Positions 8,165-58,627 of a stretch of DNA of 64,000 nt are shown in pieces. Source of the stretch: Sphaerolaimus hirsutus (lineage: Eukaryota; Nematoda; Chromadorea; Monhysterida; Sphaerolaimidae); contig OZ038458.1 in the NCBI GenBank assembly GCA_964036195.1, forward strand, positions 19,729,832 to 19,793,831. The letters are read 5' to 3'. The notes under the pieces are model-generated. The model was not told the DNA's origin. It made no database searches and saw only the letters and a program-made list of their open reading frames with translations. Within the stretch, counting starts at the first letter, position 1, and each line of letters starts with the position of its first letter. The translations under genes were made by a program, and so were the position numbers.

Positions 8165-11100
8165 ATGGGCCAGCCGCTATCAATTTCAATTACAATTCTG
8201 CTAATTGCGTCGCCGATTTACGCGTCGTTAGCGTCGCTGCTAGGCGCGAGGGAAAATAATGGATGTATGCTGCAGCAATGTGCCCAGGAATTTGACAGAG
8301 TTATACAGAGGGACAAGATTATACCCACAGCCACTCCTAGATACTGCCAGCTGATGAAAACGTCAGTTTTAGTGCTTTGCATAGTTGTTAAAGCGTATTT
8401 ACGTTTACTCAAAAAGTACGTATACTGGAGTACTGAGTAAATACGTTTACGTATACTTTGTAGAAAAGTAGCTGTACTCGCTTTTACGTATACTTTTTGA
8501 AAGTACTCGAGTACAGAAAACGTATTTCAGATTATTTATATTGTATTTCAGATTTCGGCTTATTTATTGGCTTTTCAAGGCATAGTTAGGAAAAATGGGG
8601 GAAAAAGTTAAATATCAGATTTTTTTTGCAAAAATAGCTTAAAATAGGCAAATAACACACGGAATAGTGAATTTGAAGGTTAAAATAGTGAATAAGGTAT
8701 GAAAATTAGTTATTGTGAGTGAAAATTGGGGCAAAATTACTAAAAAATACTCACTTTTACGTTTTCTAGGGGGAAAAGTATTTTACTCATGTTTATTCAT
8801 GAGTAAAAGCAAAAAAATTTATTTACGGTTTCTGTACTCAGGAGGTGAGTAAAAAATAAATACTTTACGTATACTTTGAAAAAAGTTCGGTACTTTTAAC
8901 AACTCTGGTGGTTTGGTGTTTATGTAAGATTGTTCTTTTGGGGTTTTATGAGAAATTTCTCAGGTTGATTAGGCTTTGGGAGAGTGAAAATTGGAGGTAA
9001 GTACCTAAGTTATTCAGTGATAAGGTACTTCTCTGTTGCACTTTGTGATGCCGCGTTTTTCAAACGATATTGCGGTCATCACAGGTATTTGTAAAACGTC
9101 CAGGTGACAGGTAAAAGTTCACAGTTCACATCTGGATTCAGCAAAGGTGCATACCTAGATTGTTTGGTCTCACCTCACATAGTAGCATCACCTAACTTAA
9201 GTTTGACACATTTCTCAATCCTTTACACTTGACCTGTCACTTGACAGAGTGCGGAATTGATACAACACTTATTCTTTCTTGTTTACCTACATTCTTGCGT
9301 GCTAGGAAAGAATAATTATTTTTACACACACTAGTTTCCAACCGAAAATTTGAAAACACCGGAATGAGGTGTCCGTCAACTACAGTTGATGGGGACTAAA
9401 AGTATTTCACTCAGGTAAATTTCAAATGCGTTCAAAGTTAATTTATAGTTTTCGAACTTTTGGTTGAAAACTAGTGTGTGCGGGTACAATAGCGTATTTC
9501 CACGAAATACCCCCTCGAAATACCCCCCCCGAACCCCCCCTTGAAACACCCCCCCCCCGAACCCCCCCCCCCCCTTGAAATACCCCTCTATGAATGACAC
9601 TATGAATTAAATGGACACTATGAATAAATTAGCCCCCCCTCCTCGAAGTACCCCCCCAAATTGAGCGTAAAGAGTATGTAAATGACAAAAGCTGCTGTTT
9701 GCGATCCGGGCAATGCAGAACTACGTTTAAAACATTGACTGTGTTACCTTCGAACCTGTTTTTTACATCTACATACTTATAAAATGCCAAACCTATAGAC
9801 TCTTATACAAGCTCCACTCGAAATACCCCCTCGTAAAACCCCCCTCAAAATTCTCCCTCTAGAACAATCACCCGCGTGGGTATTTCGAGGAAATACGGTA
9901 AGTAAAATCAATATTCATGACGTAGGACAAATGTATTTTGTAATTTCATAAAATACAAAACTAGGTATTTGGAGCAATCGGAAACGATAGTAACTACTAA
10001 ACTGGGCACTCAATTTTTATCATTTCCCAAATCCACAGTTACGCAAAATGCCTGGCGTCGACATCGGGCCCGTGCAGGGGCGATCTGCGATTCCACGGCA
10101 TAGAATCCGTACTAAAACGAGAGTTATATTCATTGGACTGCGACAACGTGCTGGCCAGATTCGAGAATGGCACCGATTCGGTGGATTACGGTAGCTGCTT
10201 GGACATTTTGCCCCAGGGCTCGTTGGGCGGCGGCAGGCAGAGGGTGTGCCAGTTGTTTGGCGACACGCATTTGAGGACGTTTGATGGACAATATTCTACA
10301 TGCACTGTCAAGTTGGTTTGGATACTGATTGTTTTTCATGTTTTTGATGTTAGTCGTACTTTACTAAATATATAACGTATTTCCTCGAAATACCCCCGAT
10401 GATTTATTCGCGGCGCAAATTTTGAGGGGGTTAATCGAGGGGTAGGTATTTCCAAGAAATATGGTAATCCAATGACCCGCACCCACATCCACTGACCGCA
10501 AAATCCAGCAGATCTACCCCATCTAGCTGAAAACCCTCAAAACTTCTGGTGGATTCGGTGCAAAATTAAACACGTCACTGTATTGATAAGCTACGGTATC
10601 ATTCTTAGCATAGCGTTCAATACATATAATCAGCAGCATAATCAAAATTCTTCTCTGCCAGGGGCGCGTGGCCGCTAGTGGAGAACGACTACTTCGCTGT
10701 GCAGATCACCTCATCTGTGCCTGACGATGCACCCAGTCAATCCCTAGCTGCGAGTGTAAGCCAGGTGAGATAGGGTTTGGGTAGGTTGCGTTGAGGTTCT
10801 ACCATGGCAGCAGGTTCATGGTGCTGGCGCCCACCACTGTGGCGCTGATTGGCGTCTGGCGCCATGGTTTGTGAAAGATCCATTGGTGTAGTTGGGGCGC
10901 TGCCATATCGGTGTTCTCAGCTTGGGCGTCGACGACAAACCGTTCATTTCCGGCTGGTACTAGTGAACTGCCAGCGCTCTTTTGTTCAGAAAGGTTCAGA
11001 TTTTGAACAACCACAACAAAAAAACTGCGACGACGGCAATTTCCCACCACGAACAGTTTCAACACAGACATTTTTTGGCTCAAAAATAGACCATCATGCT

Positions 11101-17669: not shown

Positions 17670-20600
17670 ATGCATTTGTTTCAACTACTCATTGCAGCAG
17701 CCACAATAGCCGTTTCAACGCAGACGTCAGGTAAATATTTATGATGGGATATGACAAAATAATATAGGGTAAGAATTTGCTATGGTAAAATACCATTTAC
17801 AAGCTTGTTAAGATGCATAAATTTAGATTTGTAAATGCATAAATCGTGCCCTGAAAGCCCTCAGCTATACCAATCTGTCCGGAGAATTAAGAGTTCATCA
17901 TTTATTGAGAGACTTTCATTCTAACAAAAAGTTCCTGGGGGTAGTCCCAAACCCTGTAAAATGTCATTCAAAGTGTCAAATATCATGTGAAATGCCCTGC
18001 AAAATGGCAACCGAGTTGCCATTTTGCAGGGCATTTCACATGACTTTCGACACTTTGCATGACATTTTACATTTTACAGGGTCTGGCAGTGGCACCTCAA
18101 TGTAACTGAATTCTGACGCTCAGTGGTATATCTAGGGTTGGCCCAAATTGATTCTTTCAAGCTGCCCGCATCAGTATCGATATCAATCTTGATATTTTTA
18201 ATACCACGGTTTCAGTATCCTTATGGGAAAATCAAAACTTTTTATACCTAAACATTGATATCGGTCTCAGAAACCTAGCGTTGTTTCAACCCTAATTGGC
18301 AACATGTATAACTAAAGAAGGCCTTGACTAGTGATGGAAAAGCGCCATGGCGCTGGCGCTAGCGTCAAAGCAAAAAGCGACACGGCGTTTGGCGCTGGAG
18401 TTCGGATAAATACCATGGCGCTTTTGGCGCTTAGTGCTAAACTACTGGCGCGTTTTCCATCACTAGCCGTGATACCACCGCCCGACATTTTGGCATAACA
18501 GAAAATCAAGCATTAACATCACATACACAACATGTTTTTTTTATCCGCAGTGCGGTGCCGTGACGCGCACGGATTTTGCAGCTTCTGGGCAAGCCAGGTG
18601 GCAGTCCCAAGCCCTGTAAAGTGTAAAGTAAAGTGTGAAATGTAAAGTCAAATGCAAAGTAAACTGTCAATTGTCATGCAAAGTTCAGTAATAAAATATT
18701 TTCTTTTTTTGTTTTGATTCACACTTTACCTTACATATGACACTTTACAGGATTTGGGACTGCCCCAGAACCGGTGCGGCGGCAACGCCAAGTGGATGAA
18801 AGCGAATTGCTGCAGTGCGTGTCGGACCACCGGCAGAACGGCTAGTTAACAGATTGCACCATTAAAATTGACAGAAAAACGAGAGAGAAAAAGAAAATGG
18901 CAAAAATAATCATCCACAGAAAGTGATCACGGCCCCGTATTATGACTGCAAAAACGCGCATCGGTATTGCGTCGCGTGGGCACAAAATGGACAGTGCTAC
19001 AAAAACCCATACTGGATGAAGGTGCACTGCCAGAAAGCGTGCAACTCCTGCGGCTGCACCGGTGAGCGATTTGGAAACTACAACGAAATAATTTGAGCAT
19101 TGGTTGAAAAATGTCTTGCCATGGTGCTTCAAAATAGGCACAAGATTAGTCAGCAGTCCAGAATAGTGATGTAAAAAGCGCCATACTTTTAGCGCCAAGC
19201 GGTATGTGTAGCGCCAAGCGCCAACGGCGCCACAGCAAAATAGCGCCAAGCGCCAACGGCGCCACATCAAAATAGCGCCAACCGCCAAAAGAACCATGGC
19301 GCTTTTCTAGACCGCGGCGCCAGGCGCCAATGGCGCCAGAGGATGTTGGCGCCAAGCGCCAATAGCGCCAGCGCCAAACAATTTCGCTGCTCATAAAGCG
19401 CAGCCATGCTATTGCCGTGGGTTTTATTCATTTAAGATGCAAGTTTTGAGTCAATTACAGTCAAGTTTTGTCTTTTTGTCATGTTTCTTTACTGTTGGGA
19501 TTTCGTGTTAACGCTGAAAAAAGAGCTTAGAGTTTCATGGACACTGTATACCTATTTCATTTTTACATATGTATTTCCGCATTTTTGTGCGTCAGCTATT
19601 ATGAGTGGGTCAGGTGCAGCCTGCCTCGGCTGACGCATCACCACCCCCCCCCCCCCCAATATGCTGGAATACCGTAAATTCTCTAACAGACTACTGTGCA
19701 GAATAGTTGAGACTTTTCACACATAGAGAAACAGTAGGCTGGGGGTCCACCGCATTTTTTGCTTCCCAATTTCTTGTCCCTTGCCCAATTTTGATGCCGT
19801 TTGAGTATGTTGGGGTTTGATGCTGCGGCTACTATGAAAATTTTTTGTTTGCTCAAATAATCCTCCAGGCCCAAGATAATGGGGGTCTATAAAAAGATGG
19901 TCAATAAATATACAAAAAATGGGCAAGCTGGATGAGTGTCTTTGAAGCTTAATAACTCAACCATTTCTGGGTTGATTTGAATCATTCAACACTTAAAATG
20001 ATCGGGACAACCTTCAGATTCTATTTTTGTGGTCAGTTTAGTGATGTCTAAATTCCTTATGTTGATTTGACCCAGTTTTTGAACATGAAAAAATAATTTT
20101 TTTGAACATGCTATCATATAGTTTAGACAACGAGGATTCATTTAAAACAAAAATGAGTTCAATATCTCTTTCCAATCAAAAGTTATGGCACTTCAAAGTT
20201 TTCAGTGGTGTCTAAATATTTTACGCTTATTTTACTGGGGTTTGCAGCATGAAAATTTTGTTATTGAACAGTCTATAACATACTTAAGACAGAGAGAATT
20301 AATATGGCAAAAACGTTTTTTCAATATCTCTTTCCAATCAAAAGTTATAGCACTTACAAACTTCCATCTTCATTCCATCCAAAATAATTGCACATTACTC
20401 ATTCACAGTTGGGCCAAGTTTTCTCCCTAATAGAGCAAAGCCAAAACCTCAAATTTACACACCAAATAGCCCCACTCAGTAGTATGCCTACTCCCATTTC
20501 TTAGTTGTTGGCTATGGATGCAAAACTGCAGCAAAAAAATAAATAAATGCCACATTTCCATATATGCATTGCCATATGCTGTTCATGCTTAGAATGTTTC

Positions 20601-23324
20601 TTGCTGCACACAGAGCTTAGCGATGCAGGCAAGCAGTTGGCATGGTAAAAGATTTGTTTAAAAATGAACGTAGGAATTGGATATAGACTTTAAAGTGGGA
20701 TACTGGGTGGCTACTGCCCAAAACAAGAAAAGTCTCAACTATTCTGAAACATGAACAAACAGTGTTAATATGTTTGTGCACTAGGAACATATGCAGATGT
20801 GAACTCGGGGGGCGGTCATCCCGGGCATGTGTAGTCAACCCCCCAGGGTACCCATGTATAGTATCCAAATGTTTTGCATATCAACCATTTCAAAATCCTG
20901 GCAACATTAATCATGCAGCGCAAAAATTCTCAACTATTCTGCACGGTAGTGTAATGCGACTGTCGTAAATACTATTGTTTTCAGCACATTTTTGGATGTC
21001 GCACTATTGGAGATGTCATATTATTGGAGACTGTCGCATTATATTTTTCGTCAAATCATAAAGTTCATTGTTCACATAACTCAAATGTGAGCATGGCATT
21101 GTAAAGCGATGAACATCGTAAAGCAAACTCTTGCGAACTGCCCAGCGGCCCTTGTGAACTTGCCGCCGTGTCCGAAAGCGCGGAATCCGCGGTTTCCGCC
21201 GATTGTGACATCGTTACGTGTTTTCTGTGTTTTTTTCTCAGGGTGTCGCATTATTGGAGAGTGTCGCATTATTAGAGTGTCACATTATTTTCACACAACG
21301 TGCCCAAGAGTGTCGCATTATTGGAGATGTCGTATTATTAGAGACCTGTCGTATTATTAGAGAATTTACGGTACATTTATCTTCTGTGTGTGCTACACGG
21401 ATCAAAATTCGGATTGGCCTCACACACACTAGTTGACAATGACACACAATGTCAACCTGTTCCGATCCCAATTCAAAGCTTGCTGCGATTCGCACATGCA
21501 TAAATAACCATATTTTTTCAACATTACAAGCCAACTTCAGTTGCAACATTCGTAATGCAACACTCTGCATTTGAACAACGTTTGTCGGCTTGTCAGCAAA
21601 CTTAATTGGAATGGGAACCGGTTGACATTGGGTGTCGTTGACAACAAGTGTGTGTAGGGCCATTATATGACAAAAGTGTTGAATATTCTTGCAGTTAGAC
21701 ATCGTTTAAAAAATGGGCAATAAGAGGATTTGTTTTCCCTGTGATAAACTTACAGTACCGCATGTGTTCATGTAAATTATACGCACAAGGTATTTTTGGA
21801 TCAAATAATGAGAATTTTTTGGATAAAATAATGAGATATTTTTGGATAAAATAATGAGATACTTCATGGCGCTTTTTAAAACACTAGCGCCAAGCGCCAA
21901 TGGCGCCACGGCATTATAGCGCCAAGCGCCAAAAGCGCCATGGCGCTTTTCAATAGCACAGTGCCAAGCGCCAATGGCGCCACAGCAAAAAGGCGCCAAG
22001 CGCCAAAAGCGCCATGGCGCTTTTCAATAGCACAGTGCCAAGCGCCAATGGCGCCACAGCAAAAAGGCGCCAAGCGCCAAAAGCGCCATGGCGCTTTTAC
22101 ATTACTAGTCCAGAAGTTTTGAAGCTTTCAGTGCGTTCGGTGAAAATAAACGATTAGAGCCGAGTACTCAGTTACAAAGTGGTCCGACCTCCCCTTTCCA
22201 CATTCGGCAAGTGTCTTACATATTTACCTACTTTGTTGCCAGCCTAAGTCCGCAGGATAAATATTTATGTGGAACCGAATGGAAGAATTATCGAGCACAC
22301 TTTCATAACAAATATCCTCAAATCGGAGAGTATTTATATACCGTATCTCCGCGAAATACCCCCTCAAAATGACCACTATGAAGTAACAACCCCCTCGAAA
22401 TACCCCCTCAAAATAACCACTATGACTGAGTACCCCCTAATAAATTTCGTTTAAATTAAGTAATCATAAGCGAGATCACAAATGCATACGCTCGCAGTTG
22501 AGAATGCGGACACGTGCGCCGGTGCCAAAGGCGTCAGCACGACAGAGTTTCCCGCAATACGTCCACAGACGGAGCCAAAACCGGTGACTTTTTTAAATAC
22601 AATAAGCCAGCTCTCTTGAATAACCCCCACAAGCCCCACTTGCATGTGGTAACCCACATCGCTTATGAATGATATTTACACCTCGGACTACACAATAAAT
22701 AAGTGTAGGCTGGATCACAGGGCACTTGAATACATAAGCGAAGTGCAGTACCTATATCGATACCAAGTGGGAATTGGGGAATTTGTTGAATGACCAAAAG
22801 TTTCGATTCGTGGGGGGGGGGGAGTGACAGCAGAAAAATTCATGGTGGCATAGACGTCGGTTCAGGGCACTTTAGGTCACTTTGTTATTAAAACATAAGC
22901 CTACAGAAACTCAAGGTTACTTTGTTGTTCACGCCAGGCAGCCAGAAACTTGCACCAAACCCACTTAGGTATCTCGAAAAAAAACAACACTTTTCAATCC
23001 TCAAAAATCACGCAGTTTGTAGGCGGCCCAGACAAGTACCCCCTGTGTTGCCAATGGGCGTGGAAGGGCCAGTGCGACACGAACCCGTATTGGATGAGGC
23101 GTAACTGCCAGGTGCCACTCCCGGACCCTGTAAAATGTCAAATGTCATGCAAAATGTCAAATGTCATGTGAAATTCCCGGTAAAATGGCAACTCAGTTGG
23201 TAATTTGCAGGGAATTTTACATGACTTTTGACTCTTTGCATGACGTTTGACATTTTACGGGGCATTTTACAGGGTCTGGGACCGCTCCAAGACGTCCTGT
23301 GGAACCGAAGGCTGCGCAGGTTAA
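17670..23324 (+). CDS. Secreted protein with three ShK (ShKT) domains, gene A
   Basis: Exons: 17670-17730 (signal peptide, 20 codons), 18551-18597 and 18769-about 18830 (ShK1), about 18920-19061 (ShK2), 23023-23111 and 23292-23324 (ShK3, TAA stop). ShK domains are six-cysteine modules found in secreted enzymes, immune effectors, matrix proteins and some venom peptides; no enzyme domain is seen, so the function is unknown. ShK2 has the full pattern CVAW, NPYWM and [10 protein letters not shown]. ShK1 has [16 protein letters not shown]; ShK3 has CCQWAWKGQC, NPYWM, SCGTEGC. ShK1 and ShK3 are each split by an M1 hairpin element that reads as a perfect intron (18598-18768, 23112-23291). Intron 19062-23022 contains nested transposons. 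The ShK1-to-ShK2 junction is uncertain: candidate donors near 18815-18845 are weak. Gene B at 32799 is the paralogue. A conserved leader (GCAAGCTCGTC at 17630) precedes the ATG in both. Confidence 0.8.
17937..18096. mobile_element. M1 MITE in gene A intron 1
   Basis: GGGGGTAGTCCCAAACCCTG on the left, ACAGGGTCTGGCAGTGGCAC on the right; the core GAGTTGCCATTTTGCAGGGC is self-complementary with the left arm. Confidence 0.7.
18132..18294. mobile_element. TAGGGTTGG-terminated short element in gene A intron 1
   Basis: Starts TAGGGTTGGCCC, ends TTTCAACCCTA. The interior carries GATATC-type units. No clear target duplication. Confidence 0.45.
18329..18466. mobile_element. H6 short copy (TAGTGATGGAAAAGCGCC)
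   Basis: 138 bp with both termini present, interior of GGCGCT/AGCGCC units. In gene A intron 1. Confidence 0.65.
18598..18768 (+). mobile_element. M1 hairpin MITE acting as intron in ShK1 of gene A
   Basis: 171 bp. It begins GTGGCAGTCCCAAGCCCTG and ends CAGGATTTGGGACTGCCCC plus AG, with both arms complementary. The upstream exon ends GCAAGCCAG and the downstream exon starts AACCGG. Removing GT...AG restores an open ShK domain that aligns with the uninterrupted exon of gene B. AG on both sides is the likely 2-bp target duplication. Read through, the element has in-frame stops, so it must be spliced for a full protein. Confidence 0.85.
19163..19400. mobile_element. H6-type GGCGCC array
   Basis: Starts TAGTGATGTAAAAAGCGCC and holds repeated GGCGCCA/AGCGCCA units; the right end is degenerate. 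In gene A intron 4. Confidence 0.55.
19673..21372. mobile_element. P3 element (ACCGTAAATTCTCTAATA termini), interrupted
   Basis: Left ACCGTAAATTCTCTAA, right TTAGAGAATTTACGGT. The interior reiterates GTGTCGCATTATTGGAGA. Interrupted by 19687-20951. In gene A intron 4. Confidence 0.6.
19687..20951. mobile_element. PIF/Harbinger-like element nested in P3
   Basis: 1265 bp, terminal repeats containing TGTGCAGAATAGTTGAGA and its complement. TAA on both sides (19684-19686 and 20952-20954) splits a P3 element exactly. No transposase is seen. The 3-bp TAA duplication fits PIF/Harbinger. Confidence 0.6.
21413..21662. mobile_element. W-type MITE in gene A intron 4
   Basis: CTCACACACACTAGTTGACA on the left and TGACAACAAGTGTGTGTAGG on the right. 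Confidence 0.55.
21865..22109. mobile_element. H6-type GGCGCC array with tandem 82-bp unit
   Basis: Near-identical units repeat at about 21940-22020 and 22021-22100. Ends GCGCTTTTACATTACTAG. In gene A intron 4. Confidence 0.6.
23112..23291 (+). mobile_element. M1 hairpin MITE acting as intron in ShK3 of gene A
   Basis: 180 bp between TGCCAG and ACGTCC. It starts GTGCCACTCCCGGACCCTG and ends AGGGTCTGGGACCGCTCCAAG. Removal joins NPYWMRRNCQ to TSCGTEGC followed by the stop, completing the cysteine pattern of ShK3. AG flanks both sides as in the ShK1 copy. Confidence 0.82.
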
Positions 23325-23715: not shown

Positions 23716-23871
23716 CCTAAAATACCGTATTACCTCGAAAAAGTCCCCAATCCGGAAAAGGGATGACCCTCCTCATCTGAAAAACGATTTTTACGATGCT
23801 GTTAAGCAGGAAGTTCATTATAAACAGTTCTTTGGAATGCAGCCTGTGAGATATCTTTTGTTTTTGGTAAA

Positions 23872-24328
23872 GCTGCGTTTACACTGGCACCTGTGACGAC
23901 AAAATTTTTTTGGGCTTTCAACTTTCTTTATGTGACGAAAATTGAATATTTGTTGTGTCAGATACCTAGATCTCGATCACTCTTTTTGCCTAGGACAAAC
24001 ATAAATTTTTATATATGACGTGATCATACACAATAAAACAAACAAGAAAATTTGTCGTCACAAGTTGTCGGTTCGAGTTGTTCCCGGGAGCCTCGTTAAC
24101 GAGGCTCCCGGGAACAACTCGAACCGACAACCTGTGACGACAAAAATTTTGTTTCGTTTTATTGTGTATGATAACGTCATATATAAAAATTTATGTTTGT
24201 CCTAGGCAAAAAGAGTGATCGAGATCTAGGTATCTGACACAACAAATATTCAATTTTCGTCACATAAAGAAAGTTGAAAGCCCAAAAAGTTTTTGTCGTC
24301 ACACGAGTCAGTGTAAACGCCGCTTTAA
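23872..24328. mobile_element. Near-perfect palindromic MITE, arms about 225 bp
   Basis: Outer ends AAAGCTGCGTTTACACTG and GTGTAAACGCCGCTTT; the centre GAGCCTCGTTAACGAGGCTC is a perfect palindrome. Arms match almost base for base, so the strand would fold into one long hairpin. Between gene A and UGDH. Confidence 0.8.
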
Positions 24329-25095: not shown

Positions 25096-28000
25096 TCACT
25101 CAGCCACGGGTCTAGTGGCGGCGGTAGTTTTCCTCATGGCCGGCCTGAGGCCAATGGCGCTCACCCTGAACCCGATGGCGGCCAGTTTGTCGTGGTCGAG
25201 CACCAACCTGCCGTCGAACAGGAAGGCCGGCTTGGACATGGACTCGTACACGCGCGTGTAGTCGTACGTCTGTGGGGGGGGGGGGGTGGAGTTACGCGTT
25301 AGAGGGGAAATTTATGAAGCGTTTGCGAGTAAAGTGAACGTTCTCCGCCATTTGTTACACGATAGCTTTCGGTGCTATTCGTGGGGACTCCCAGATACTG
25401 TAAAATGTCAAATGTCACGTAAATTGCGCTGTAAAATGGCCACAAATTTTACGGGCCATTTAACATGACTTTTGATACATTGCGTGACATTTTACATTTT
25501 ACAGGGTGCGGGACTGCCCCTTTTTACACATTAGTTGGAAAAGTGTTGAACGTTGAATCAAAACTGTCACATTCCTGCGCTTCTACTACTTTCAAGCTGA
25601 ACCTCACAGCATCTGCAAACAACAGATCACCCACCTGGAATTCATCCCACTCCGTGAGCACCACAATGGCGTGCGCGCCGGCCGCCGCCTCGTAGGGATC
25701 AGAGTGAACCTCGACCAGCTTGTCGACTGTGTCATATATTTCGAATATTCAAATTGACGGTTGCATAGGGCCCACACACACTTGTTGACATCGCAAATTC
25801 GTGTCAACTGAATGTCAACTAAAAAACACAAAAATGTTAAAAATCATCACTTGACAGATCTAGCGCCAAAGCAAAAAACGCCATGGCGCTTCTGGCGCTT
25901 GGCGCTAGAGGTCGGAAAAGCGCCACGGCGCAATTGACGCCAAAGTCCTGGCGCTTTTTCATCACTAGTCACGATACAAAATTAACTACCTATGCTTTAT
26001 CTCATAGGAAAGTTGAAAGCACAAAATAATCCAAAATTAAGTTGAATTCAGTTGACACGAATTTTGATGTCAACTACCGTAGTCTGTGGGCCCATACAGA
26101 CGCAAAAGCATCCAAACACACCACTATCGGGATGATAGTGCTCAGCGACGGCGGGGTGCTGCAGCTCGGACAGGATCTGCTTGGCGGGCACTTTGGGGTC
26201 GTAGATGGACAGGCGGGCGCCCTCCTCCAGCAGGTGGCCGCACACGTAGATCGCCGACGATTCTCTGGGGGGGGGGGTTGCGATTTAGAGCGGGATTTAC
26301 AACATTATTGAAATCTGTGTCTGGCAGAGTTGTTAAAAGTACCGAACTTTTTTCAAAGTATGTGTAAACGTCAAGTGTCTATTTTTTACTCACCCTTGAG
26401 TAGGTACACAAAACGTAAAGTAAATTTTTTGCTGCTTTTACTCATGAGTAAATCATAGTAAACATACGTTTCCCCAGAAAACGTACAAGTATTTTTTGAA
26501 AAATTTAGCGCCGATTTCCAGTCAGATCACTAATTTTCATATTTCTATTTGTTTACACATTTTTACCTTCATAAGAACACTATTTAATCCGAAATTAATA
26601 AGTTAATAAATACGCACTGACGCACCTAGTATCTCCAGTATTCTTCTTGAACGCGAAGCCAAAAATGGCCAAACGTTTGTCGGTGACCGTGTTGAACAGC
26701 GCCTGAACTATGGACGTGCTGAAACGTCTACGTTGCCATTCGTTGATGGATAAAACGCCCGCCCAGTAGTCAGCTGCCGGCTGGATGGCCAGTGGGTGGG
26801 TGTGTGAAAGATGACTATTGTCAGGTGCCCAGTGCGCATCCTGTTTATTGCTTGTCAAGTGAATGATTTCTGGGGGAAGTCCCAGACCCTGTAAATTGTC
26901 AAATGTCATGTAAAATGTCAATCAAAAATAAAAAGAATATATGTTATTACTGAACTTTGCATGGCAATTGACATTATACTTTGTTATTACGTTATTATTT
27001 GTCATGACAATTGACACTTTGGATGACATTTCAATTTTTTTTACACTTTACAGGGTTTGGGATTGGCACAGGATGGAGCACTTGTCACTTGATAGGGCAC
27101 GTTCCAGGATAAGGCACTGGGTTCTGGACTGTCACCTCTAGCAATTAAATATAGCCCTCACTTGGAAAACAATTCAACATAATGAATCACCTGCAAATTC
27201 AGGCATTCGCACAGATACACCAAATTGAGCACGTCCTTCTGGAAACAGCTGCCGCCAAAGCCCACGCTGGGCTCCAGAAATTTCGGTCCAATCCTTGAAT
27301 CCATGCCAACAGCTCGGGCGACTTCGCGCACATCGGCGCCGGTCGCCTCGCAAATCGCTGAGACTGAAAAAATTGAGGTAGGTAGGTAGGTTTCCAAAAA
27401 TTTTCGAACAGAATAATGTCAATAATTGTCGAATTTCGAAGAACCTTGCATTGTGCGTGCGCACTAGTTTTCATCGGAAATTTCAAAAAGTCATAAATCT
27501 GCGTTTCAGTTTTTTTAGAATGAGGTGTACGTCAACTAGTTGACGGAGATAGAAATGACTCAGTTTAGTACACTTAAATGCGCTCAAAGTTGATTTTAAC
27601 TTTCGAAATTTCAGTTGAAAACTAGTGCGCGCACTGCGCAGGACAATGGTGCGGAAATCTTGTATTAATCGACCAAAAAATTCAAATGGCAAAATTCGTT
27701 TCAATACCAGACGCCATCAATTCCCCACACCGTAAACGTATGAACTCGATCGAACCTGTATTAATATTGGAGATGCGCTGCGCCAGGAAAGCATTGGCGG
27801 TCAATTTCGACAGCTCAGACGACCTGCAAAGCATTCACACATTTTCATTATAAACATGCCTCAAAAATTCGTGGGCCAAAAAACAGCCACAAGCCAGGGG
27901 TTTTCTAGATTTGGACCCCCGCGGGCGGTTCATAATTTAGATAGGCTTTTCCAAGGTAGCTGGCGAATAGGGGGGAGGGGGTAACCCCACCCCTACCCCC

Positions 28001-31000
28001 TACTAGACCCCTGCCACAAACCATGTATTCGTAGTGATAATCCTCTCGCTGGGCACCCAATGCGTGTAAATGTGAACCAATTCCTCAATTGCGGATCTAC
28101 CGGCCGCAGTTGTCACATCGCCGCCAATCAAAACACGGTCCGGTTTCAGTAGATTGTTGATAGCTGTGCCTTCGGACAGGAATTCCGGGTTGCTCAGCAC
28201 CTGCGGAAGGGGTGGTTTTGGGGGCTTCAAAAGTAGTGATGGAAAGGCGCCAGAAAAAAGGCGCCAGGCGCCAATGGCGAAATGGTTCGGGTACGTAGGG
28301 CACAAGTGAAGTTCTTTGACTGACAATCATTGGATTTTCGATCTTAAAATCCAAATGAGCTCATAAGTTCCCGTGAATCAGAGTGAACACAGTGAATTCA
28401 ATTGATTGACATGACATGGTATGACATTGAATTCAAAAAATAAATGCTAAAAACTGCCATTTCCATTGACCGAAGGATTCACAATAACATCGCAACTTAT
28501 ACAGCAAATAATAGTTTTGATAAAACCATCAGCTCGCACAAAAACCAACCACAGTCCAAACACAAATTCACCCAAAGTACCCAAAACTTATTGGCCCCAC
28601 GCACACTACTTTTCACACGAAATTTCGGAAACTCATAAATTAGCTCTGAACGTGTTTGAGTTTTCCACAATGAGTCAGTTTTAATCTCCGTCAACTGCAG
28701 TTGACGGTCACCTGATCGTAGAATACTCAAATGCATTCTAAGCTGATTTCAGAGTTTTTGAAATTTCGTGTGAAAACTAGTGTGCGCAGACCCCAATTCT
28801 CACCTGAAAAGGCACACGAGTTTCCCTTTGGGCAGCGGACAATATCTGCCTTATGCTCTCGGCAGCCTTCACCGGCACCGTGCTTTTTTCCACCACAATT
28901 TTCGGTTCGTTCGAGTGCGCGGCGATCGTTCGGGCTACCGATTCCACGTAGCGCAGATCGGCCGCTTTGCCCTGGAAAATGGGTTACGGTAGGGTTACGG
29001 TAGGTTATGGTAATGGGATGGGGCTGTGGAATTAAAATGTGATGAGACTGAGATATGGTTTGTGAAAATAACGGCGATTGATTACAGTGTGTATTATGTG
29101 TTTTTTTAATAGCAGGCGCACCGGGTGCCAGGTCCGCAAGTGGAGAAGTGAGAAGTGAAATGCGAAGTGACAGGGGGAGTTTTTCAAGGGGGTGATTATT
29201 CAAGCAAAAACGGTAAAATCCATATCTAAAAAGTCAACCGAAAATTGGGACGCACGAAATTCTCAAGAGTCAGTCAAGCTCAACCTGATTTGATATTAGG
29301 TAATTTTTTTGATCTTTGAAACCGCAATGTGATTTCTTTTATGTGACCGCTTTATTAATAAAAAATGGCATCTGATAAACTGTAGTCGGTTACATCAAAA
29401 TGATTTTGATGTTTTTTTGATAATCGAATGTGGAAATTGATCTGTTTGTCGCCCGAAGGCAGGAATAACACAAATAGTTCATAAGAAAAGAGCGGTATAA
29501 GAAAAAAAGAATAGTGGCAGGGGAAGATGATGATTTTTTCAACAGTTCTTATCAAGATCGTTTTTAAATTGAAGAGTCAGAGATCATTGATTCTTATTCT
29601 TGAAAATTACTATGATTATACTCATATTTCATACCGAATTGCAAAACATCTGTGCCAATGCACTGACATGCACTTAAATTTTTATGATATCTGTATTTTT
29701 TAACCAGGCAGCAATGCCCGATTGTTTTCAACAACATAAGAGGAAAATAAAAAGTTAACAAACAATGCATAAATGCGAATAAATATGAAAATGACATTTT
29801 TTTGTGAAATTTTCTAGAAGTATACATCTACGCGACAAGATATCAGCTTATCAGCTTCATTTTGGCACTATGCCCAGTGACATAAAATGTGGCGGTGACG
29901 CAGTGATTGTCACCGCCTGCTTTTCGGATGTCACCGCCGCAAAATGAGGTGTCATCGCGGTGACAATCACCGCCACATTTTGATCCGTAGTTCAGTTTTA
30001 ATTGGTGGCACGATTTTTCAGCGCATTCCATCATATTTAATAAATAGAAGCGTAAAGGCCAAATTTGCCAGCGCCAAATTTGCATATGACACGCATAAAA
30101 AATATTCTGGGCAGCGATTCATAGCCGCAGCGGGGGAAGCATTTAAATATTTAGCTTTGTGCACATACCTAATACCTAAATCGAATGAAATAAAAACATT
30201 TTCCTTACATTTTTAGGATTTCGTTTTCCACATGCTTAAGCGGTGTTCACACGGTTTTGTGTGAATAATACCATAAAAAATAGTGAAAACGTTCCATAAT
30301 TCCGGAATAAAGTTCCGTATTATATCTGCAAAGAAAGGCAGTATGCTCACGTAAGAAAGTGTGCTCACTAGCGTAAATACACACATGCCAATTTGCAGAT
30401 AATTATAGCCTGTCAGGTTGTATCAGGTTGTCCTGATCATTTTAACGATTAACACAATGATTAAGTGTTTAATCGGCCCAGAAAGAGTGGTGGACCACCA
30501 GCCTACTGTTTCTCTGTAATGAAAAAGTCCCAACTATTCTGCACGGTAGTGCACATCCATGCATCCAAAGCAAAAAGAGCCATGACGCTTTTGGCGCATG
30601 GTGCTACTAGGGTTGGCCGATGTTTTTTTTAAAACGTTTTTTATTTAAAAAAAACGTTGTTTTTTTTTAAAAAACATGACATCCGAAATGTTTTTTTTTT
30701 TTAAAAACATCGACCGAAATTTTTAGTACTAAGCACTAGGTATTTTGCAAAATTTTTGCGCGCAAGCGCGCAATTTCACACACAAATTGACATTGGTGGT
30801 TGTTTTCATTTGTTTCCACAGTGTGTAACTTCACTCCCAAAGTAACAACCTCGTTTTATAACCTTGTTTGATCACTATTCCGTGCCAAACTTTACCTGAA
30901 GTCACGAACATTTGACTGTAAGGCGATATAAGAACAATATGTCGACGAAAAATGGATATTTTTGACACAAATCACCACTTATAATGCTATCCCATGGCTC

Positions 31001-34000
31001 CACAGACATTATATGGTCATATATAACATCACAGAGTATTGCCACTGTCTGATATACCTATATATGTTGACACAAGGTCATATCTGGGAGCTTTTAAAAA
31101 AAAACGTTTTTTAATTTTTTTAAAAAAAACATCGAGTTAAAAAAAACGTTTTTTTTCCAACCCTAGGTGCTACCATGGTGCTTAGCGCCATGTCCATGAA
31201 AAGTGCCATGGCGCTTTTGGCGCTTTTCGTAGTTGTAAAAAAAGTGACAAAACCTGCCATTCTATTGGATGTATGCCTTTCTATTAGAAGAAGTACAGTA
31301 AACGTAAATATATCGCTACACAAACTAGCGTATACTGCGTTGCAAAATGGATGCAAATACATCATGTACCTCGAATACATTATGCACGATATTTCAGACG
31401 GAATATTTCATGGGGGGTTAGTTCAAGGGGGGGCGAGTATTTCGAGGAAACACAGTATATAATTGAGGTGTCTAATTCTAAAAGTCGACAAGTCCACAAA
31501 ATGTGATTTTGAGTAAATCGCATTTTAAGTTTCCGATCCAATTCCAGGCCCGTGGTGCATGTCCAATTTGGCTCTCTCATGCTTTTCATAAAGTTCCATA
31601 TGTTGACAATAAAGTGTCAAATTTTCAGCCCCTAATCTCAACGTATATGTGAAAAATGGGGTGTCCATAAAATTCCATTCGGTCAGAGCAAAACTGTTTC
31701 GGGGAGGGAAATGGACTTGACGCCTTCTTGCACGCGAGAACATGTTTGTTCCCGCCCGCGTTGCGCCCCCCTTATGGGAAATTTATGCACTTGTCGCCTT
31801 TTAGAAATCGGTTTCCACAGTGGACATATCACATTTCTTGCGTTTTTTCCCATAAAAAAAGGAAGCGGAGGATGGACTTGTCGCCTTTTAGCCCAAAACC
31901 AAGTGGACTTGTCGACTTCTTGCCCAAACTTTTTGTATTTTTCCCCAAAAATGTCAAATTTGGCACTTTGCCATATGGGCATGTGAGGTCAAAAAATTTA
32001 TGGAAAATGATAAAAAATGTGCACAAGTAGCCCCAGATGACGTTTCCGGGCCTAACTCGAAATTTTCATATTATGGACTTGTCGACTTTTAGAATTGGAC
32101 GCCTCAATTACATAATGGTGTCACTGCGACAAAATAGCCTGTCACTCACCGTCACCGCTAGAATTTTGGACGATTTTATGTCTATGACTATGTCCACCTT
32201 TCGGGTCGTTTTGAAAAAAGAAAATCGTTTTAAAAGGTTCTTCGAACGCTACACGGAAACCTAAAATTTCCCACCAGCTAAATGGTGATTACGCGGCGCG
32301 ACAAAAAGTGCCCGAACCAGACACATAAAAATGTATGCGAGACCATATAAATATAGAGAACAATCTTCAGTCCTCATGTTGACAACAATCATCATCTCCA
32401 CAAATTAAATAAGTAGTACCGATACCGATCCAAAACAGAGGAAAAAGTCGGTATTTTCCTGTTACGATCCAACACCCGATACCCCAGTCCCGTTCCCGAT
32501 TTCAATACCGACATTTTTTTATTCCTGGGCGCACTCCCAGCCCCTGTAAAATGTCAAATGTCATGCAAATTGCCACAAGTCATGGAGAATGCCCTGCAAA
32601 ATGGCAACCGAGTTGCCATTTTGAGGGGAATTTTCCATGACTTTGGACACTTTGCATGACATTTGACATTTTACAGTGCTTTTTACAGGGTCTGGGAGTG
32701 GAACCAGTCCCGATCCCTCGTTAAAAACCCAAAATTTTACAAGTAAATTGCAGATAAACCGTAAGCTCGTCGCTGCCGCGCACCATTAAAAACTCAAAAT
32801 GCATTCGCTTCACCTACTCATCGCAGCAGCCACAATAGCCATCTCAACGCAGACGTCAGGTATGATGGAAAAGTATCAATCTCGTGGTTAAAAAGCCAGA
32901 TCGCCAAAAAAAGTCATTGCCATGGAACATTTCATAGGCGTTCTTATATTTTTGTCGCATCAGTAGCTGCTCAGCATAACCAAGGACATATCGAAGGCCT
33001 TGTAAAATGCTCTGTAAAATGTGAAACTTTAATTTATTTTTAACAAGTTGTTATAACATTTTTCACAACGTTTGCGTTTTGCGTGACATTTTACATTTTA
33101 CAGGGTCTGGGAGTGGCCCGCTGTATATGTATATCAATATATATATTTAAATATAAATATACATGTATTTAAATATACATATGAAGACCGCATCACCACA
33201 CCACCTCCCCGGGTTTTTGAGTGTTCAGAGAGAAATCTGCTGAAAATACTGTGCTATCGAAAAATGGCAAAAAAATTACAAAACCTAAAAAATCGGTAGC
33301 GAAAGTTACAATCCCCCCCACGTTAATTTCGGCCGATAATGAAACAGACTCAACACAACTTTATGTTTGAAAAATACAAATCCACAGTTCCATGCCTTGA
33401 CAAGGACGAGCTGTGCAGCTTCTGGGCGAGCGAGAACGAGTGCGACAAAAACGCAAAATGGATGAAAGCCAATTGCTGTGATTCATGCCAGGGTACCGGC
33501 ACAACGGCTAGTTTCCGCTTCAAAGATTGATTAAAAAGTGCTACTGTAGTGCTTCTTATAGAACGGTATACGTCCAATAGAAGGGCATCTTCAATAGAGC
33601 GGCAGGTTTTGGCACCATTTTTAACCCACGAAAAATAGAACAGCAGCCTCCAATTGAACGGCACCAGCGACGTATCCAGGATTTTTGAGCGGAGGATTCT
33701 GTTTGTTTACGGAGCCCGGCGAACGGGGGGGGGGGGCTCAACCCCCCTCCACATTTTGCTTACACAGTGAAGGAATCGGGATCGGGATCGGGATCGGGGT
33801 CGGGATTGGCCGGGATTGGGGTCACGGGATCGGGATCGGGATTGGCATTTTTTCGGGATCGGGGTTGGGGTCTAGGGATAGAGATTTTCGTCACTGTTCT
33901 GACATTCACAGTTGTTCATAAAGGTCTTAAAACACTATTGGATGCTAGAAAAGTGACATAAAATGGACGCTGGGGGTTTGCGTTCACATTTTTGCACGCA

Positions 34001-37000
34001 AAAATGTCATTTTTTCACTTTTTATAATTTTTACTATTTTTTCCGGGATCGGGATCCCGGACTTGGGAGATTCTCGGGATCGGGATCGAGATTTGAAAGT
34101 TTTCGGGATCGGGATTGGTATTTTTGGATTTCGGGATCGGGATCGGGATTGGAGTTTCGGGATCGGGACTGCTAAATCCCGGAATTTCACGGGATCCGGG
34201 ATCGGGACTGCTAAATCCCGGAATTTCACGGGATCCGGGATCGGGATCCCGTTTGAACCCTAGTTGACGGGTCGCAGATTTTAAATTTTCACATACCGCA
34301 ATATTTATACTTCAAAATTGCGCATGTGCATTTCAACATCATTGGGTGTCCCATAAACTAAAATCTGAATTGGCATCGAAACCAGTTGACATTGGCACCA
34401 AGTGTCAACTTTTGTGGTGTACGCAGCGTCAATGCAGGGTAAGATTCAACTTTTCCGCAGGGTAAGGAACCAAAGGATGACTGCAAGGATGAGAAGGGTA
34501 AGGAACCGGAGGATGAATGCAAGGATGAGAATGAAAACTGCGCCGCGTGGGCCAAAAAGGGAGAGTGCGACAAAAATCCATTCTGGATGAAGGTGCACTG
34601 CCAGAAAGCGTGCAACTCCTGCGGCTGCACCGGTGAGGGTTTACGAAGAAGTTTACAGCATACTTTGTCACTTACAGTTCGGATCATATATACCGTATTT
34701 CCTCGAAATACCCCCCGGTAGGGTGGCACGGTAGGGTGGCAAACCGTACGGTACGGCAAACCTCGAAATACCCCCCTACGGTAATAAATTGCCATATTTA
34801 AGGTCAATCTGAGAAAAATTTACCGCATTTTCGGCGGTAAATGAGTGCGGTACGCGGTACGGTACGGTAAATTTTGGAAAATGCGGTACGCGGTACGGTA
34901 CGGTAAATTTCTAAAAGTGCGGTAAACGGTACGGTAAATTTCCCAAAAATGCGGTACGGTACGGTACGGTACGGTAAATTCTGCCACCCTACCCCCCGGG
35001 GGTGATTGTTTCAGATTGCAAATTTTGAGGGGGATTATCCGAGGGGGGTAAAACGACGGGGTTTAAATGAGGGAGGGGTATTCCGAGTTGTGCTATTATT
35101 TCGCCAGAAATTTTTTGAACTCAGAGTACTAATTTTTTGTTTGTAACATACGCAAACGTAGAAAAATGTTAAAAATGACTGCCCTGCATAAGAGTCTATA
35201 CACTTTTTTAAGTACCGTAGATCCCCTTAATAAGTCCTCCCTCTCGAATAACTCCCCCCTGTTCAGGGGTCTCCTAGGGGGGGGGGCTGCCCCCCCCCCA
35301 AATCGGCCAGCTATTTATCTATCCCGGAGGCCGCTCAGCTATCTATCTATCCCGAAGCAAAATTTTTTGCTACTACCCCAAAAGACCCCCCCCCCCCCAA
35401 ATCGCTCAGCTATCTATCTATCTGGAGTGGTTTTTGAGAAATTTTGCCCCAATTTTCGCTCAAAATCACTAATGCACCTTTTAATAGTTTTTCACCTTCA
35501 AAATCGTGCTTTCCGGCTATATACATGGTTATATACCTATTTTTAGCCATTTTATATCTACTTTTGGCTACTTTTAACTGATTATTTGCGATTTTTACTC
35601 CTTTCTGCCTTCTTAACCTTGAAAAAGCCTATATATTGTGGCCCCGGCAGCCCCCCCCCAGAAAATTTTTCCAGCTATCTATCCCTCCGGAGGAGCGATT
35701 TGCTATCTATCCAGCCCCCGCGAGGGCCAAAATCCTGGAGACCCCTGCCCCTGTTAGCAGACTGAGGAAAAAATAACTCCCCCCCTCGATAAACTCCCCC
35801 CTACTCTATGGGTGGGAAAGTCTGTATGTATAAAACTGCTGTAAATATGTATCTGTACATAAAAAGTATGTATTCTTTTGCAAATGATGTTTACTAGCAT
35901 TGATTTCATTGCATTAAATACAGATACATGCATGAATTTAACCCAATTGCTACAGTATATTGATCATGCATTTAAATTTATACTCTGGCGAAAAAATAAC
36001 TCCTCCCCTCGAATAAGTCCCCCCTCAAAAAATTCTGACGAAAAAATAACTCCCCCGGGGACTTATTCGAGGATTTACGGTATGTAAATACGAGGTATAA
36101 ACCCTGTTCTAACGTAACACAGTCATTGTTTTTAACGTGTATTCAGCGTTGCCCAGAACACAAACCGCAGGTTTTCTTATTTACGTTCTATTTACACTCC
36201 ATTTGGGGGGGGGGTTCGAGTAATTAGATAATCGTATACTAAAGGCAAAACCGATACGCTCGCAGTCAAGAACGCGCACGAGTGCTGAATTACCTGGTGA
36301 AAACTTACCTTGATAAAGATAAGATAAATACATCGGACTGCGTGCTTTACAGACAATTTTACCGCATTTTCACGAATCAAATTACATGATAAATTTTGGA
36401 CGAAAAAAGTGATACGGGAAAATAGTTAAATTTTCCCGATGGGATATGGTAGATTTGAGTGTAAAGTGTGCGGTCCTCAGACAACGACACATACGAAGCT
36501 GCGGGTCGTAGCTAGGGCCGGTGACATATTTACATGACTTAATCACAAATACGCCGCGTATCCTCACATGAGCATAATTTCACCCGCAACTCTCGAATAT
36601 AAAATGTCATTAATAGTTTACAATATTACTGTTGTTGCAAATTCGTTGATTAAATACTTTCGCTTTTGTAAGCACTTTTTGTCACAGCTACACCTTTAAA
36701 TATTCATCTTATCGTACAGTAATACTTATTAGTCAGAGTTCATCTTGCAAATATTCGGGCCAATGTAGTGAATAAAAGCACCCTTATTTAGCTTTGTCCA
36801 AAGATGGATAATAAAAAACAAGTAACAAATGCACAAAAACAATAGCAGAAAAGACGCACCTTTCCCAAGCCGGACGTTTTGGTGGGCGTGTTGACGGATA
36901 TGAAAATGAGCTGAGCCTCCCTGATCGCCTTGTGCACATCCTTACTGAATGTCAAGTTTGTTTGCCTGCGCCGTGAAGTTTTACAATGAAGACAACTGCA

Positions 37001-44363: not shown

Positions 44364-57737
<13,374 letters not shown>

Positions 57738-58627
57738 GGCCGAATTTCGTCGAGTCGTGATTAAACTGCGATTTGAGATAAGAAAATTGAGTTGCGAATG
57801 TGACTTACGGTTTTTGAAAGCCGCGTCGACAAGGAAAGAGGAACGAAAATGTGATAAATTGCGTCAGCCAAATTTTCACGAGACCTGATAAGAGAAGATT
57901 TCAACATACCCAACTTTTCCGATGTAGCACACCGCAGCGGTCGTTCTGAGGCCCGAACAAACGCGTAGAACCGACTGAGGGCGGAATAGCATGCAAAAGA
58001 CAACGGGGCAAAAAATAGTCGGCGCGTATGTTTTTCCGATTTTACTTTTTTAAAGAAAAGTTTAATTTGTTTCGCAATTCTTGAATTAATACACCGGCGC
58101 TGCAGCACTGTTGTCCTCTGATGGCGCCAGCGCCATGGCACCACTGTGGCAATCCGCGATTTGTTTCTGGCGCTTTTCCATCACGTATTTGCAGGTAACC
58201 AATTTCCGAAAAGTTTTTTTCGGGTTTCTTTGACACTTGGGGACTTCCGTTCCAAAAGTTCACAAGCGCCAAATCCAGAAAAATCGAGTTAGCTGTGGAT
58301 TCGACATCCACGTATAATTCTGCCCATTTTGGTAAAAAAATCAGTGTTATAGTCCATTTTGTTCCCGAGATACAGTGGTACCGTTTTTCAGAAAAATCAC
58401 AATTTTCATATTGAAAGTGCACATATCCATCTCAGATCCCCTATGAAAAACAGGACTTTCATTTCGTAAGTGCACATATCCATGTCGGACCACCGGAGTT
58501 TCATTTCATAAGTGCACATATCCAAAAAAATAGTTTCATTTCCAAAAGTGCACGCGTGCTCCGGATCGCTCGCGAAGAGCCGGCCGGATTTCCCATACAA
58601 AATAAAGTTTCATTTCCAAATGTGCAT

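Follow-up and report, generated by a model that had tools for sequence, protein, structure and literature searches.

Can a mobile element that lands inside an exon arrive as an intron, with splice sites that would return the interrupted reading frame to its former state? Where new introns originate has long been debated, and hardly any introners are known from animals, one survey reporting them in two groups (PMC9860276). The window analysed here, a stretch of 64,000 nucleotides (C14:19729832-19793831 in an assembly of 348,482,957 bases and 762 contigs), raises the question directly: one gene, A, carries a MITE of the M1 family within its ShK1 exon, and its paralogue, gene B, has the same exon uninterrupted. 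Judging from the DNA, we put at about 0.62 the probability that this GT-first M1 element, having landed in a CAG, is a spliced new intron that was gained after the duplication separating genes A and B, and we regard M1 as a probable introner family in an animal. The features of gene A are as follows.

17670..17730, plus strand: signal-peptide-like first exon of gene A, 20 codons, 15 of them identical to those of gene B at 32799
17731, plus strand: donor of the first exon of gene A, AG/GTAAAT, read from the sequence
18551..18597, plus strand: 5' piece of the gene A ShK1 exon, ending in the 5' copy of the target duplication (TSD), CAG at 18595-18597; from tblastn to gene B 33393-33434
18598..18765, plus strand: M1b MITE, GT-first, in the gene A ShK1 exon; from alignment and fold
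18766..18768, plus strand: 3' TSD copy, CAG, the would-be acceptor; from comparison of end trinucleotides
18769..18846, plus strand: 3' piece of the gene A ShK1 exon, its end approximate; from tblastn to gene B 33435-33509
18920..19061, plus strand: gene A ShK2 exon, free of insert at both MITE positions, its start approximate; Pfam ShK, E 4.3e-7

The first-pass annotation had read this locus as GCAAGCCAG (ending at 18597) / GTGGCAG (from 18598)...CTGCCCCAG (ending at 18768) / AACCGG (from 18769), slashes marking the cuts, and both sequence and coordinates are right. Its description of the insert as an M1 copy from end to end needs one amendment: the element proper spans 18598-18765, and the last three bases are a copy of the TSD. 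That a hairpin MITE lies within the ShK1 exon is borne out by folding (-62.1 kcal/mol, z -8.7, with 0 of 200 shuffles as good), and the GT at the start of the insert does belong to the element itself, the M1b tip being GT-first. The acceptor AG was said to derive from a duplicated AG; a target duplication would indeed supply it, but the duplication is of 3 bp and of CWG type, not a 2-bp AG. Searched apart with tblastn, the pieces 18553-18597 and 18769-18843 of gene A match gene B at 33393-33434 and 33435-33509, exactly abutting at 33434/33435 and in one frame, so that the uninterrupted paralogue is as had been claimed and removal from GT to AG would restore the reading frame of gene A exactly. 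The abutting match fits a single extra CAG.

The mechanism proposed for this arrangement runs as follows. M1 inserts mostly into CWG and duplicates its target, and one of its tips reads GTG; a GT-first copy entering a CAG in a sense exon makes the exon read CAG/GT...CAG/, in which the element brings the donor and the second TSD copy provides the acceptor AG, and removal from the GT to the second AG would restore the exon to the base. This geometry is a rule of the M1 family and is not particular to gene A. Because a terminal GT...AG follows automatically from the M1 tip and its target, it is by itself no evidence of splicing. At the level of DNA the mechanism is well supported; spliceosomal removal of the gene A insert is likely, if unproven.

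The ancestral state can be read from gene B and its relatives. The exons of gene B are these.

32799..32859, plus strand: signal-peptide-like exon of gene B; from codon comparison with gene A
33387..33527, plus strand: ShK1 exon of gene B, the uninterrupted paralogue; Pfam ShK, E 1.9e-4, passing the cut-off
34461..34632, plus strand: ShK2 exon of gene B, uninterrupted; Pfam ShK, E 1.4e-9

At an E threshold of 0.1, a search of the whole assembly with the gene B ShK exon gave 57 rows, and 56 of them (gene B itself included) span residues 16/17 in one match; the exception is the interrupted exon of gene A. Stop codons occur in 2 of the 56 spanning rows. Because the other ShK rows run across the position of gene A's cut, the uninterrupted exon is, by parsimony, the ancestral state. 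A protein homologue search with the gene B ShK exon gave no match at threshold.

A six-frame scan of the window found a further ShK exon, lying outside those 57 rows, that is split as in gene A by an M1 copy, here followed by AAG. Its junctions read AACTGCCAG (ending at 23111) / GTGCCACTCCC...CGCTCC / AAG (ending at 23291) / ACGTCCTGTGG.

23010..23111, plus strand: 5' piece of the third ShK exon, with CAG at its end, its 5' start approximate; from tblastn with the gene B ShK2 exon, E 1e-8 and 4e-9
23112..23288, plus strand: M1 MITE with GTGCCACTCCC tip, within the third ShK exon; from alignment and fold
23289..23291, plus strand: AAG in place of the expected 3' TSD copy CAG; from the sequence
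23292..23319, plus strand: 3' piece of the third ShK exon, TSCGTEGCA; from the frame, with a donor G/GTTAAT at 23320

When rejoined, this exon shows the same C-x3-C spacing as its ShK counterparts; taken by itself, the 5' piece of 34 residues has no Pfam match. The insert has a folding energy of -99.1 kcal/mol (z -12.6).

If M1 carries the proposed geometry wherever it lands, its copies should reveal a consistent tip and target. Twenty M1 intervals lie in the window, 15 near-full copies of which were aligned, and among the seven window copies compared the closest to that of gene A are 26873-27069 (minus strand, M1b type) and 48226-48408, at 85.6%/86.1% identity; the three form a common subtype, M1b. 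A search of the assembly with the gene A element gave at least 79 matches, and 40 of 1253 first-look candidates were scored. The exact 27-base CAG/GTGGCAGTCCCAAGCCCTGTAAAG occurs 395 times in the assembly (199 forward, 196 reverse), and a reversed control occurs 0 times. Because the copies compared were picked either for ranking highest in similarity to the gene A element (L002-L031) or for an exact CAG/GT tip (L062-L111, the 50 of the 395 in listing order), they are biased toward young copies, and older ones are under-represented. Median divergence from the consensus is 1.6% in 50 aligned sequences from these selected copies; 6 of them were taken in reverse orientation, so that the tail of the distribution is inflated.

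Target duplications were scored on the genome copies, the window's own older copies being ambiguous. Identical trinucleotides stand at both ends in 42 of 69 distinct GT-first M1 insertions; among copies not selected for CAG the figure is 19 of 27 (shuffled mean 10.3; so high a count was reached in 1 of 2000 shuffles). The target is mostly CWG, that is CAG or CTG, and one ATG and one CAT insertion are also duplicated at both ends, so that the duplication cannot derive from the TIR. The remaining 27 of 69 have unequal end trinucleotides, often CAG with CTG (e.g., L011, L013, L019, L021, L073, L090); in the unequal CAG/CTG pairs of M1b copies it is the W base that is affected. One tip of M1 is GTGG and the other GGGG, and the arms match over about 72 nt. 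M1 is, on its sequence features, a non-autonomous DNA transposon of the MITE kind. Exact M1 TIR patterns had 0 matches in one search of viral contigs and 0 in a genome-contig collection; one TIR match in a viral contig was set aside as chance, the record being AT-rich and unrelated and the match falling within one of its coding frames. Rfam and tRNA scans gave no matches. One M1b insertion recurs in near-identical host stretches (L105, L106, L108, L062), i.e., within a larger repeated unit. Two further M1b copies, L078 and L074, lie in or 5 nt past acceptor-like sequence (TTTGGTTTCAG; TTTTTTCCACAG), where the insertion would restore or extend an intron already present.

The gene A copy is 4.8% off the consensus (8 of 167 positions; rank 51 of the 67 copies compared), has lost 24 nt, and has the second weakest hairpin among those 67 (-61.8), the hairpin lying between -113 and -136 in 32 of the 33 copies less than 2% diverged. 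In gene A and in the third ShK exon alike, the donor and acceptor ends pair in one strong stem, which could hinder splicing. A stem in which both splice sites are buried is expected to impede splicing, so that the weakened hairpin of gene A would fit adaptation to splicing; it may also be plain decay. Scored with simple weights, the terminal donors are middling (12% of GTs are as good as that of gene A, 15% as good as that of the third ShK exon) and the terminal acceptors weak, 34% of plus-strand AGs scoring at least equal to that of gene A and 67.5% of AGs at least equal to that of the third ShK exon. Some internal donors of gene A outscore the terminal one, the best being GTAAAG at 18628, 30 nt inside. 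Under a neutral model, the gene A exons would have stayed intact with a chance of 2-74%, depending on the rates assumed.

The recurrence of such insertions in other genes, which the first-pass annotation had proposed to look for, was found in the third ShK exon, in three loci outside the window (L079, L098 and L095) and at sites in a 7TM family. Frames through the insertion site were tested for 33 CAG/GT copies and 20 further short loci (of these 20, one had an unreadable 3' end and several were near-duplicates), and the three loci are the coding cases that emerged. In L079, a 375-codon frame crosses the junction (88 codons left, 287 right), with 340 codons from Met to stop; the protein has 28 other rows in the genome and by eye looks 7TM-like. 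It has no 7TM Pfam match and no PDB match, the left piece has one unrelated Pfam match below the cut-off, and a homologue search with 199 residues gave no match at threshold. Chance was considered as the source of this frame and set aside: 10 of 4000 random flank points reached 287 codons, L079 being among the loci drawn. A neutral model gives a 0-49% chance of an intact L079 frame, depending on the rates assumed.

L098 has a Pfam TTL match (E 4.6e-5, passing the cut-off) that extends to the final complete codon ahead of the insert, and weakly matches TTLL6 in the PDB (E 0.014). The L095 exon is tentatively synaptotagmin-like, its only PDB matches being two synaptotagmin-3 chains (E 1.4 and 1.5). 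The copies in L095 and L098 are 1.0% and 2.1% diverged from the consensus, too young for an intact frame to count as evidence. Age was also considered as a sign of retention and gave no trend, the copies in gene A and L079 being older and those in L095 and L098 young. L017 has an exonic-looking frame, perhaps of a transporter, with no Pfam or PDB support, and its copy lies in the incompatible CTG configuration. Reading 44 exact-tip insertion sites in antisense proved no antisense coding exon; L097 looks possible as one and has no Pfam match. A Pfam scan of the open frames in L087 and L094 gave no family support, and these two, like the open frames of L103 and L104, were left out of the count. 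Judged on sequence, the ends are flush in gene A, the third ShK exon, L079, L095, L098, L113, L120, L123 and L124. The M1 inserts thus lie in unrelated genes (ShK, the 7TM family and TTL), and insert-free homologues exist for the ShK and 7TM genes.

The 7TM family allows the fate of interrupted genes to be followed. We compared the stretch after TM1 in 11 members (L079, L112-L117, L120, L122, L123 and L124), chosen for short frames (L112-L115), for long frames (L116-L117), or because the left and right matches lay apart (L120, L122-L124); L121 is the far end of L114, whose insert is known from its ends. A flush MITE is present at 8 of these 11 chosen sites, or 7 of 10 beyond L079. L112, L116 and L117 run uninterrupted through the stretch (KIAKKGKPGFWMQTVIF and similar), the upstream part of L112 being broken off or in another exon. 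M1 lies at the IAR site in L079 (an M1b copy), at the KPG site in L113, L120 and L122, and at the WLQ site in L114 and L115, which have the insertion in common at both ends; L123 and L124 carry a different MITE family, with GTGCCRGTTCCGCAA tips, at the KPG site. If a common position and family is counted once, there were at least four insertions at three positions. The second hairpin family, M2 (GTGCCRGTTCCGCAA.. tips), also has a CWG TSD and is flush in L123 (C1:28598905-28599165) and L124 (C15:13199718-13200015); an M2-like end occurs in the window at about 29131.

A terminal AG with an open downstream frame is present in 7 of the 8 MITE-bearing receptor genes, with downstream lengths of 301 (L079), 291 (L113), 296 (L114), 289 (L115), 253 (L120), 293 (L123) and 289 (L124) residues. 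L122 is the exception: CTG stands at either end of its insert, and the match downstream is frameshifted, falling into two frames (residues 4-110 and 106-199). That the sole receptor without a terminal AG is the frameshifted one is suggestive, being one case against seven. Beyond their common insertion, L114 and L115 have exons identical at 518 of 578 positions, with differences mainly at third codon positions (13, 8 and 39 by position), no stop or indel, and a dN/dS of 0.24. Because the insertion predates the split of the two genes, both seem to have been kept functional with the insert in place, and strong evidence of post-insertion selection comes from this comparison only; the downstream part may be expressed alone from another promoter. 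The L114/L115 insert starts with GG rather than GT, so that exact end-to-end removal would need another donor, which may be the GT 18 nt inside, adding GPIPNP in frame.

How well do these observations fit readings other than a spliced intron? If the MITE had simply disrupted a decaying or dispensable duplicate, with neither gene A nor the third ShK exon spliced across its insert, the terminal GT...AG would still arise automatically and weak terminal acceptors would be unsurprising. The differences between genes A and B, which are not biased toward synonymous changes (30 codons differ non-synonymously and 10 synonymously among the 100 compared in four pieces), sit well with such decay, as do the phases of the gene B ShK1-ShK2 intron, not matched on inspection, and the exonic-looking copy in L017. 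Decay is harder to reconcile with the retention of every Cys codon, in both genes, across the ShK1 pieces compared, with the recurrence of flush insertions in open-frame genes, with the constraint downstream of the insertion common to L114 and L115, and with the frameshift falling on L122, which among the eight receptors lacks a terminal AG. We therefore hold this disruption to be unlikely, if far from negligible. An older intron at the gene A position, invaded and replaced by the MITE, is very improbable: gene A shows no intron remnant beyond the element and the 3-bp TSD, neither gene B nor the other ShK rows have an intron there, and the KPG site, where two MITE families at the same nucleotide could indicate turnover in an old intron, is CC(A/T)G, the target type that the family uses.

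Splicing could also proceed at sites within the terminal repeats (CCCT/GTAAAG, 18 nt in, and/or TTTACAG/G, at the same distance from the other end), and the product would then carry 6 or 12 additional residues in frame. The inner acceptor of gene A, 18 nt within the element, scores 2.76 vs -2.28 for the terminal one, and both inner sites keep the frame; an inner GT would also serve L114 and L115, and comparable additions are described for Aureococcus introners (PMC9860276). The inner donor 18 nt in, however, scores below the terminal one both in gene A (-1.22 vs 0.03) and in the third ShK exon (-1.61 vs -0.55); in the latter, use of the inner acceptor, which stands 19 nt short of the end, would break the frame; and in the receptor paralogues the extra residues would fall just before or in TM2. 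This variant seems to us improbable, and we continue with exact removal of the insert as the preferred reading.

The mechanism proposed for M1 is of a kind already known. The non-canonical introns of Fritillaria borealis are reportedly of MITE origin. That species is, like this one, an animal, and has many unusual introns, mostly AG-A(N) in contrast to the GT...AG of M1 (Henriet et al. 2019, via PMC7789003 and PMC12621601). Of 3,325 genomes surveyed, 175 were found to contain introners; animals and land plants together accounted for no more than two groups with them, each an animal group, and copepods are named (PMC9860276). Like M1, the TSD co-opting introners of that work (Gozashti et al. 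2022) are multicopy, resemble DNA transposons, have their ends at splice boundaries and bear TIRs and/or TSDs (M1 has both), a TSD being able to supply a splice site; they also leave mRNA length mostly unchanged, as exact removal of M1 would. Closest in logic are the introners of Chrysochromulina, with an element-borne 5' site, a co-opted 3' site, a 4-bp TSD and no TIR (PMC9860276). M1 differs from the introners of that paper in combining a 3-bp CWG TSD with long hairpin arms, in an animal.

The CWG TSD marks the NuwaI group of PHIS (PIF/Harbinger-related) transposons, found in animals only in the survey of PMC4482050. M1 has the 5'-CWG-3' duplication and shares the G-rich TIR start and the animal host; its tips are GTG or GGG where those of NuwaI are usually GGG, and its arms of about 72 nt compare with NuwaI TIRs of 12-61 bp. 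M1 is a putative member of the group, like it in TSD, TIR start and host. Hairpin introns of euglenids, for which a MITE origin has been proposed (PMC4770533), and the hairpin introner elements of Amoebophrya, for which it has been discussed (PMC7789003), resemble M1 in that inverted repeats join the intron ends, but their borders are mostly variable and non-canonical, whereas M1 has GT...AG ends and a fixed TSD rule, the GG start of L114/L115 excepted. As far as our searches show, a CWG-TSD Harbinger-type MITE is new as a source of introns, and the host animal is probably new for introners; in the introner literature searched, co-mention of Harbinger was found in fungal-genome work alone.

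A broader reading, to which we give somewhat less than even odds, is that this animal genome is in the midst of a burst of intron birth, in which CWG-targeting Harbinger-type MITEs would carry intron geometry on arrival, persist in or ruin genes according to whether the target supplies an AG, and later shed hairpin strength, as gene A may have done. If so, the burst would involve hundreds of copies (395 exact tips, with a median divergence of 1.6% among those compared) and repeated CCWG exon insertions, at three positions within about 10 codons of one receptor family, persisting where the target supplies an AG and ruining the gene where it does not. This one genome offers insertions of different ages, insert-free paralogues, configurations that do and do not suit an intron, and a simple rule for the target, so that intron birth, splicing efficiency and retention become measurable in it, as does the influence of a stem enclosing the two splice sites.

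The window contains other features besides these. A frame with the RGM N/C-terminal domain (Pfam) lies at 10001-10375 and an alanyl-tRNA synthetase exon (Pfam) at 57525-57863; together they mark the genome as that of an animal. An inverted repeat at 23868-24327 has 230-nt arms that are 94% complementary, with no spacer, and a long repeat is present in four copies of 94-99% identity (30691-31100, 45234-45753, 53914-54433 and 56145-56664).
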